This document shows, in pieces, positions 7,025 through 10,260 of a DNA stretch of 64,000 bases (its first letter is position 1; each line of letters starts with the position of its first letter). The DNA lies in NCBI GenBank assembly GCA_019745195.1, contig JAIETL010000050.1, positions 1 to 64,000 on the forward strand. Reading direction: 5' to 3'. The notes below the pieces were generated by a model, which was not told where the DNA came from, searched no databases, and saw only the letters and a program-made list of their open reading frames with translations. The stretch comes from Beijerinckiaceae bacterium (GTDB taxonomy: Bacteria > Pseudomonadota > Alphaproteobacteria > Rhizobiales > Beijerinckiaceae). The translations under genes were made by a program, and so were the position numbers.

Positions 7025-8221
<1,197 letters not shown>

Positions 8222-8230
8222 TTCGAGATC

Positions 8231-8419
8231 ATGCTCGACGTCCGCCTGAATTCCCTGCCGTTTTTGGTGTTTGTGCTTATATTCTTCTTCTTCACGAGTA
8301 AGCAGAAGAATCATGTTGACCAAGTGATGCTAATGAATCAAGAAATATTGGAAACAAATCGCCAGACTGTGAAAATTCTTGAAGAAATCAAGACGATACT
8401 ACAAAATGGAAAAGCCTGA
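8231..8419 (+). CDS. Small AT-rich membrane-anchored coiled-coil protein, unknown function
   Basis: A 62-residue ORF starting 9 bases after the sucC stop. Residues 9-22 ([14 protein letters not shown]) form one transmembrane segment, followed by a charged, heptad-like helix (residues about 24-58) rich in N, Q, K and E. The base composition is clearly poorer in GC and the codons (ATA, AAA, TTG, AAT) differ from all neighbours, which suggests recent arrival by transfer. I do not recognise the family. Expression would come from the TCA operon transcript. Confidence 0.55.
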
Positions 8420-8421
8420 CA

Positions 8422-8460
8422 TCCATCCTGATTGATAAGAGCATCAAGGTCATCTGCAAG
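8422..8460 (+). pseudogene. Decayed duplicate of the sucD 5' end
   Basis: 39 bases match the start of the intact sucD (9258-9296) at 34 positions and would encode SILIDKSIKVICK against [13 protein letters not shown]. There is no start codon in place (ACA where sucD has ATG) and similarity stops within a few bases at the right end. Four of the five differences make the remnant less GC-rich or change an amino acid. It marks the original junction of sucC/sucD or a duplication made when the toxin-antitoxin cassette entered. Confidence 0.8.
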
Positions 8461-8486
8461 CAGCCTTCGTGTAGGAATTAGAGAAG

Positions 8487-8831
8487 ATGACAAGGATCAC
8501 GATCGAAATCGACGACCAGATCATGGCGCGCGTGGCGACTGTCGCGCGTTCGCGTCATGCGTCGGTCGAGTCGTTGCTCGCTGAGCACGCCAGTATGATC
8601 GGAAGCCTTGCGCCGATCGAGATCGACAATCCGGCCCATCGTAAGCTGATGTCCAATGTCGTCAGGCCCCCCGGCTATTACGAAACTGCGCGCGAAGAAA
8701 GCTATGACCGGGATCGTCAGCGCGCCGAGATCTACGCCGCGAATAAGAGCCGCCTGCTTCGCCTCATAGACGAGACGGAAGGAGATATGGGCGATCAAGG
8801 CTGGAGCCGGGAGCGGCTTTATGTTCGCTGA
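8487..8831 (+). CDS. Antitoxin, ribbon-helix-helix (CopG-like) type
   Basis: 114 residues. The N terminus (TRITIEIDDQIMARVATVARSR, then ASVESLLAEH) fits a ribbon-helix-helix strand plus two helices. The C-terminal part (from about 50) is charged and probably wraps the toxin. It overlaps the following PIN-domain gene by 11 bases, the normal antitoxin-then-toxin order of VapBC-type modules. It probably binds its own promoter, but as placed it may also be read from the TCA operon promoter. The cassette lies between the sucD remnant and intact sucD. Confidence 0.75.
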   Translation: MTRITIEIDDQIMARVATVARSRHASVESLLAEHASMIGSLAPIEIDNPAHRKLMSNVVRPPGYYETAREESYDRDRQRAEIYAANKSRLLRLIDETEGDMGDQGWSRERLYVR

Positions 8832-9240
8832 CTGTTTCCTCGACACTAACGTGCTGTTCTATGCCGCGCTTGGGCGTTTCACCGAGCCTGGCAAATATGA
8901 ACGCGCGCGCCAGGTGATCGCGGAAACACATTTTGGCCTCTCAGGCCAGGTGATGCAGGAATTCTTCGTCAACGTGACGAGGAAGACCGCCCGTCCGCTG
9001 ACGACGACGAAGGCGCTTGAATGGCTCGACGCACTCGGCGATCGGCCTTTCGTCTCTGTCGATCGCCAACTGGTCGGCGAAGCCGCCGCCGTCGCCGACC
9101 GCTACCAGATCAGCTACTGGGACGCAGCCCTCATCGCCGCCGCCGAGCGGCTTGGCGCGCCCGTCCTCTACACCGAAGACCTCAACCACGATCAGACCTA
9201 CGGGTCGGTCCGCGTCGTGAACCCTTTCCGAGCCAACTGA
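8821..9240 (+). CDS. PIN-domain ribonuclease toxin (VapC-like)
   Basis: A 139-residue PIN-domain protein with the expected acidic metal-binding residues: D8 in CFLDTNVLFYA, E47 in VMQEFF, D101 in SYWDAALIAAA and D120 in LYTEDLN. Members of this family cleave RNA, often tRNA, when their antitoxin is lost. It is the toxin partner of the preceding ribbon-helix-helix protein. The gene ends 14 bases before sucD, so the toxin is embedded in a housekeeping operon. Confidence 0.85.
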   Translation: MFADCFLDTNVLFYAALGRFTEPGKYERARQVIAETHFGLSGQVMQEFFVNVTRKTARPLTTTKALEWLDALGDRPFVSVDRQLVGEAAAVADRYQISYWDAALIAAAERLGAPVLYTEDLNHDQTYGSVRVVNPFRAN

Positions 9241-9254
9241 GCCGAGAACCTTAA

Positions 9255-10139
9255 ATGTCCATCCTGATCGACAAGAACACCAAGGTCATCTGCCAGGGCT
9301 TTACCGGCAAGAACGGCACCTTCCATTCCGAGCAGGCGATCGCCTATGGCACGCAGATGGTCGGCGGCACCTCGCCAGGGAAGGGCGGTTCGCTCCATCT
9401 CGGCCTGCCGGTCTTCGACAGCGTCGTCGAGGCGCGCGACAAGACCGGCGCGACGGCGTCGGTCGTCTATGTCCCGCCTCCGGGCGCGGCCGATGCGATC
9501 TGCGAGGCGATCGACGCCGAAATCCCGCTGATCATCTGCATCACGGAAGGCATCCCGGTGCTCGACATGGTCAAGGTCAAGCGCTCGCTGATCGGCTCGA
9601 AGTCGCGCCTGATCGGGCCCAACTGCCCCGGCGTCGTCACCGCCGGCGAGAGCAAAATCGGGATCATGCCGGCCAACATCTTCAAGCCCGGCTCGGTCGG
9701 CATCGTCTCGCGTTCGGGCACGCTGACCTATGAGGCGGTGTTCCAGACGACGCGCGAGGGGCTGGGCCAGACCACGGCCGTCGGCATCGGCGGCGATCCG
9801 GTCAAGGGCACCGAATTCATCGACATGCTCGAGATGTTCCTCGCCGACGACAAGACCCATTCGATCGTGATGATCGGCGAGATCGGCGGTTCGGCCGAGG
9901 AGGACGCAGCGCAGTTCCTCGCCGACGAGGCGAAGCGCGGCCGCAAGAAGCCGATGGTCGGCTTCATCGCGGGCCGCACTGCCCCTCCCGGCCGCCGCAT
10001 GGGCCATGCCGGCGCGATCATCTCCGGCGGCAAGGGCGGCGCGGAAGACAAGATCGCGGCGATGGAAGCCGCCGGCATCCGGGTCTCGCCCTCGCCGGCG
10101 CGCCTTGGAAAGACCTTGGTGGACGTGTTGAAGGGCTGA
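9255..10139 (+). CDS. sucD: Succinyl-CoA synthetase, alpha subunit
   Basis: 294 residues, intact. It carries the CoA-binding domain ([14 protein letters not shown] near 17-30), [11 protein letters not shown] near 118 and the phospho-histidine loop [12 protein letters not shown] with H251. It pairs with SucC. The start [16 protein letters not shown] is standard for the family, so the functional gene kept its full N terminus despite the insertion. The ribosome site (GAGAACC) is weak and lies in DNA next to the toxin gene, so translation may depend partly on coupling to it. Confidence 0.97.
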
Positions 10140-10149
10140 AGGTTTCGCC

Positions 10150-10230
10150 CGTCATGGTCGGGCTCGGCCCGACCATCTCGTGACGCGCGAGACTCCCGAC
10201 GAGATGGTCGGCTCAAGGCCGACCATGACG
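10150..10230. repeat. Paired inverted palindromes (REP-like) between sucD and sucA
   Basis: Two 31-base units (10150-10180 and 10200-10230) are inverted copies of each other, and each can fold on its own (ATGGTCGG...CCGACCAT). The long stem would bring together 10150-10180 and 10200-10230 around a 19-base loop. Such structures within an operon can stabilise upstream mRNA or attenuate downstream expression. Confidence 0.85.
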
Positions 10231-10260
10231 GCTAGGCAGGCAGAAAAAGGCAGGACGACC

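Follow-up and report, generated by a model that had tools for sequence, protein, structure and literature searches.

The junction between sucC and sucD is a recurrent variable slot, occupied by a single small co-directional gene or by a PIN-domain toxin-antitoxin (TA) pair, and most of the genomes examined closely have it empty. In the Beijerinckiaceae bacterium genome from which the window was taken (the whole 64,000-nucleotide stretch of DNA analyzed), both kinds of occupant are present at once, and a truncated copy of the sucD start (here called the fossil) lies between them, in the order sucC, small open reading frame (ORF), fossil, TA pair, sucD. This arrangement, and the same one in two other alleles, more likely than not arose, with considerable doubt, by recombination joining a sucC-ORF-sucD allele to a sucC-TA-sucD allele, so that the two occupants became stacked. 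Genomes are designated below by G-numbers, the window's own being G000, and loci by L-numbers. The literature covered, which leaves out most subscription papers, yielded nothing on a TA pair or an inserted gene at the sucC-sucD junction.

Coordinates of the features are collected in Table 1. The likely genes in the 1,033-nt insert (8222-9254) are the small ORF, the antitoxin and the toxin only, and no recombinase-like gene was found within it. Rfam gave no match to a known RNA in the window, and PADLOC gave no defence-system match for the three inserted proteins. The first-pass annotation, which had an antitoxin and a PIN toxin lying between two copies of the sucD start, was correct on this point, and the sucD 5' end is complete, with an older start left behind, as it had stated. 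Over its first 60 nt, sucD of G000 is 88-98% identical to that of the compared genus genomes (sliding identity). Separately, the spacer between sucD and sucA (window 10149-10231) carries a long, hairpin-like palindrome made of a 28-base sequence in two inverted copies; the second copy has 2 mismatches and is beyond chance in the window, the search pattern having been drawn from the first copy.

Table 1. Features of the sucC-sucD junction in G000 (window positions)
Feature	Position	Strand	Remarks
sucC, left flank of slot	7025..8221	+	NCBIfam PRK00696.1, E 1.6e-170
Small ORF, first occupant, 62 aa	8231..8419	+	absent from the first-pass annotation
sucD fossil, codons 1-14, ATG to ACA, overlaps stop of preceding ORF	8419..8460	+	
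Seam, sucD fossil to antitoxin gene, origin not recognisable	8461..8486	+	
Antitoxin gene, 114 aa, probably ribbon-helix-helix	8487..8831	+	upstream of and overlapping PIN gene
PIN-domain toxin gene, 139 aa	8821..9240	+	PF01850; 11-nt overlap with antitoxin gene
Intact sucD, right flank	9255..10139	+	NCBIfam PRK05678.1, E 7.6e-137

Type II modules of the VapBC and FitAB kinds consist of a PIN toxin and a ribbon-helix-helix (RHH) antitoxin. The window pair resembles them in having a PIN toxin, as first annotated (PF01850, E 2.1e-12), overlapped by a small upstream gene; its acidic residues D8, E47, D101 and E119 are invariant among 8 aligned sequences, and no PDB sequence relative was found at E 0.01. 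An operator-like dyad upstream of the TA genes in many relatives is a further likeness. It differs in that its close members in this order are almost confined to the sucC-sucD gap, and in that its antitoxin is longer, reaches no family cut-off and lacks a recognisable dyad (the best in G000 scored 12/23 and was located outside the seam). As to the RHH assignment of the earlier annotation, no Pfam or NCBIfam cut-off was passed by the window antitoxin itself, and of two antitoxins at the same position elsewhere one passed DUF6364 and the other fell just short, both matching RHH models weakly. The window antitoxin is thus likely to be of the RHH type. Three further PIN genes were reported in G000, 32-35% alike to the window toxin, and the idea of plasmid-borne copies was discarded, 7 of 72,556 records being matched, all at <60% identity.

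The duplication of the sucD start is real, with 34/39 positions identical between 8422-8460 and 9258-9296 at an offset of 836. No other ungapped placement in the window did better than 26/39 (minus strand; 23/39 on the plus strand). When 8222-9254 was searched against its own 5.4-Mb genome, the sucD start was the sole other place reported (E 9.2e-6), and the local alignment score of the fossil was 53, as compared with 28 and 23 for the best of the shuffled spacers (single-base shuffles). A chance match is ruled out by the window scan, the own-genome search and the shuffles together. A repeated cassette elsewhere in the genome was also rejected, the segment being reported once. As annotated, the remnant has no start codon, ACA replacing ATG at 8419-8421. 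The supposed drift toward AT is borne out only in part: the 39 positions hold five changes, of which three are C>T, one is C>A and one is A>G. Read against the genetic code, 3/5 of these changes alter amino acids.

The small ORF has a G+C fraction of 0.39 as against 0.67 in the window, and its protein, judged by eye, has one membrane segment and a charged helix. It has no Pfam or NCBIfam match at 0.001; its C-terminal pattern recurs in ORFs that occupy this junction elsewhere, and BLASTP links a group comprising L002, L010, L063, L064 and L208. Three genomes of the same genus (G031, G025 and G030) carry a related ORF as the sole occupant between sucC and sucD. DNA of the window matches G025 and G030 at 76% over 85 nt, a stretch that takes in the end of the ORF and the beginning of sucD. 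Of the genus genomes compared, G031 is the most similar to G000 at the DNA level (identity 0.932 in sucD and 0.917 in sucC), and the small ORFs of these two align at only 26% protein identity. In the single-ORF relatives the ORF stop overlaps the sucD start (TGATG); the stretch from the end of the ORF into sucD is CCTGATGTCC in G031, G025 and G030 and CCTGACATCC in the window. In the window the start codon of sucD at this overlap has become ACA, and the remnant is thus what was once the beginning of sucD in a sucC-ORF-sucD allele.

Empty sites are plentiful. In the genus sample of 67 genomes, 64 junctions were readable (G044, G059 and G064 were not), and in 54/64 sucC and sucD lie 9-12 nt apart, which disposes of the objection that no empty site exists and agrees with the earlier description of the TA pair as extra DNA. 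The ten occupied junctions are those of G000, G031, G027, G045, G052, G054, G025, G030, G033 and G065, and a lone TA allele was found in none of the 64. A second comparison centred on L105, for which 61 genomes were searched and 30 fetched loci read, L105's own included; 19/30 loci were tight and 11/30 had an insert, and the two nearest to L105 (L184 and L185) were tight. Both the genus and L105 with its relatives thus show one site with differing content and with empty alleles. Spacers of >300 nt in the mdh-sucC-sucD-sucA-sucB cluster were counted at 41 loci, a hand-chosen sample that includes junctions known to be occupied and so serves as a rough control only, and were found 8 times between sucC and sucD, 3 times between mdh and sucC, and at neither sucD-sucA nor sucA-sucB. 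The three mdh-sucC spacers with extra DNA were those of L224 (872 nt), L230 (445 nt) and L237 (603 nt).

Contents of the sucC-sucD slot vary, and include small membrane-like ORFs, secreted-looking ORFs, Ivy, cupin and TA genes. The slot protein of L188 is lysozyme-inhibitor-like (Ivy, E 3.6e-9), with that of L187 tied to it by a BLASTP link, and that of L192 is a cupin (E 9.1e-14). A wider pool for the 204-aa secreted ORF of G045 was sought and rejected, 1/397 genomes being matched (E 9.7e-4), at a locus where neither sucC nor sucD was found. At L158 (positions 1-2724, G112) the PIN TA pair is followed by a second small-gene pair, by eye DUF433-like plus PIN-like, with apparent repeated stretches around each pair.

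In this order the PIN family is closely tied to the slot. In an order-level sample of 397 genomes (Hyphomicrobiales), 28 PIN rows passed 1e-12. At E<=1e-20, 20 of 21 rows, the window's own included, had sucD in the same ~3 kb locus, the one row without it coming from a second copy in G112, and the weaker rows had it in 0/7. Extending the family search brought in L275 and L276, which likewise lie at sucD; L276, from a genome of the window's own order, has the spacer of L103 (Bauldia), which makes that order the Hyphomicrobiales. Among named genomes sucD stood beside the toxin at 5/44 loci (L102-L105 and L107, Hyphomicrobiales going by their names), with sucC opposite in 4/5; the flanks fetched for the other 39 showed neither sucC nor sucD, and one of these loci, L106 from a gammaproteobacterial MAG, is equally similar to the window (55%). 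Within the class beyond the order, 7/385 genomes (own excluded) had weaker PIN matches (37-40%), and sucD was found in none of the seven fetched loci.

Spacers were scanned for fossils by DNA and by translation (42 spacers in the main scan, of which L154 duplicates L002 and seven come from second sucCD copies). Clear sucD-start fossils were present only in G000, G054 (L062) and the MAG locus L105, and all three alleles have the order of parts given above for G000. The L105 fossil is 47/50 identical to its own sucD start and keeps an ATG and a short reading frame. At L062 (G054 C12) the ORF continues in frame into the fossil for a total of 137 aa, and the TA genes behind it are degraded. Single occupants carried no such trace: a significant fossil was found in 0/8 single-occupant insertions of the genus and in none of the lone-TA junctions tested, and ten single-occupant junctions of L105 relatives (8 one-ORF, 2 TA) had none, with scores <=18 as compared with 80 in L105; for these loci only the placements of sucC and sucD were used, the TA content of L210 and L211 being taken from separate comparisons. 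L171 scored above its shuffles through a match on the PIN gene start and was set aside as chance. The fossil is not universal among two-occupant alleles, being absent from the ORF-plus-TA alleles L103, L156, L157 and L173; it is also absent from L158-L160, which have other extra DNA beside the TA. The kept frame of L105 and the in-frame fusion in G054 would suit a fossil retained for function, e.g. as a leader peptide or an element coupling translation of the downstream genes; with the start codon lost in G000 and most of the changes there altering amino acids, this is considered very improbable.

On the sucC side, seven distinct lone-TA alleles, all with a recognisable dyad (16/23 or better), have the in-frame sucC stop exactly 6 nt before the operator-like dyad (L162, L163, L164, L165, L167, which equals L211, L168 and L210). 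Stop-to-dyad spacings in other lone-TA alleles were 14 (L102), 86 (L155), 8 (L166), 8 (L169), 7 (L170) and 17 (L275), and in L104, where the dyad is poor, the spacing was 6. L105 (276 nt), L160 (132 nt) and L161 (26 nt) have a more distant in-frame sucC stop, and a TGA nevertheless stands at -6 in these three, with GGCT or GTCT ahead of it; what comes after the fossil in L105 is GGCTTGA, placed exactly 6 nt from the dyad of the TA pair. Such a pattern is what would be expected if the TA pair had arrived with a sucC tail. Nine alleles have a recognisable dyad and an in-frame sucC stop away from -6; TGA at -6 was kept in 3 of them and was missing in L062, L102, L155, L156, L157 and L173. No recognisable sucC tail was found in the 26 nt after the fossil in G000.

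Some integrating elements, on entering a gene, restore its 5' or 3' end, and the first-pass annotation had proposed that the cassette entered at the sucD start and restored the gene in this manner. The junction is like such elements in that the end of a target gene is duplicated and the host gene is complete at sucD; it is unlike them in its lack of a recombinase-like gene in the insert, in the tested single occupants without a fossil, and in the sucC-like tail at the L105 seam, and a duplicated target end was not found in each insertion. The proposal is not supported, because fossils among the tested alleles occur only with a small gene plus a TA pair. In a more specific form, the TA pair would be a site-specific element entering sucD at codon 14-17 and bringing or duplicating a 5' end. 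The end of all three fossils at almost one sucD position and the near confinement of the PIN family to this junction in the order are in its favour. It is judged quite improbable, given that lone TA pairs (e.g. L162, L164, L165, L167, L168 and L210) stand 6 nt from the sucC stop with no fossil, that the genus single insertions have none, that the insert contains nothing recombinase-like, and that the sucC-like stop at the L105 seam is not predicted by it.

The same structure could also have been built in reverse order, by entry of an ORF cassette (the small gene plus ~45 nt of sucD) into a sucC-TA-sucD allele. TA-only alleles do recur in the order, and the sucC-like stop that stays with the TA pair in L105 fits this sequence of events; the genome nearest to G000 in both flanks within the genus, G031, has the ORF and no TA pair, and the lone TA allele that would have received the cassette is absent from the readable genus junctions. 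This order of events is regarded as unlikely.

Under the preferred reading, in which a sucC-ORF-sucD allele and a sucC-TA-sucD allele were joined in G000, G054 and L105, the seam would run from approximately codon 14-17 of sucD in the first allele to just before the TA pair of the second. Given that position, the complete sucD would be supplied by the second allele and the 39-50 nt fossil would be left by the first. Which allele was in place first, and by what route they were joined, we infer: probably a homologous crossover downstream in sucD was combined with a join at the seam that was illegitimate or used microhomology, which is the simplest route, or else sucCD was duplicated in tandem and a deletion followed. 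The three seams are no more than about 10 nt apart in sucD, which would be unexpected from random illegitimate joins unless microhomology guides them; at the L105 seam sucD reads GGCTT, similar to GGCTTGA of the sucC tail, so microhomology may do so. Both sucD copies of L105 are of the species' own type, so the incoming allele would need a close-relative donor. With neither a sucC tail nor a dyad recognisable in G000, stacking there is deduced from the ORF allele of its relatives and from the fossil.

Several observations go against stacking: to the missing sucC tail and dyad of G000, the closeness of the three seams and the own-type sucD copies of L105 are added the degraded TA pair of G054, the ORF-plus-TA alleles and L158-L160 with no fossil, and the displaced-stop alleles (6/9) with no TGA at -6. 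No foreign or donor tract was visible in sucD of G000 by sliding identity. A PIN tree of 29 rows was weakly resolved (4/25 inner branches well supported), and forcing five PINs into the group that they form in the SucD tree was disfavoured (p-AU 0.039, in a comparison run with six rows left out and for a group picked after the trees were seen).

Chromosomal hotspots exchange accessory content through recombination in flanking core genes. The sucC-sucD slot is like them in its fixed position, variable content and mostly empty state, and unlike them in lying inside a tight operon whose sucC and sucD normally overlap or stand 9-12 nt apart. A broader reading, which we regard as rather doubtful, is that the junction acts as an integrase-free, order-wide docking slot, into which small genes and a dedicated TA family enter, swap and stack by recombination in the ends of the flanking genes, the TA pair guarding the slot by killing cells that receive an empty or foreign allele in its place. 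Were it true, stacked alleles would bear a scar in which a sucD start meets a sucC end, and from which the sequence of events could be read. Addiction may account in part for the persistence of the TA pair, which would be co-transcribed with an important operon; as it lies in a central operon, a swap for an empty allele would end the supply of antitoxin, and the pair would stay. That a TA family is tied to one site in a central-metabolism operon across many genera suggests persistence by position and not by mobile elements, and a TA pair that blocks replacement of its own allele is an idea open to an allele-exchange test. Fossils of the sucD start and of the sucC stop allow the entry and stacking of accessory genes to be read in tight operons that have no recombinases.
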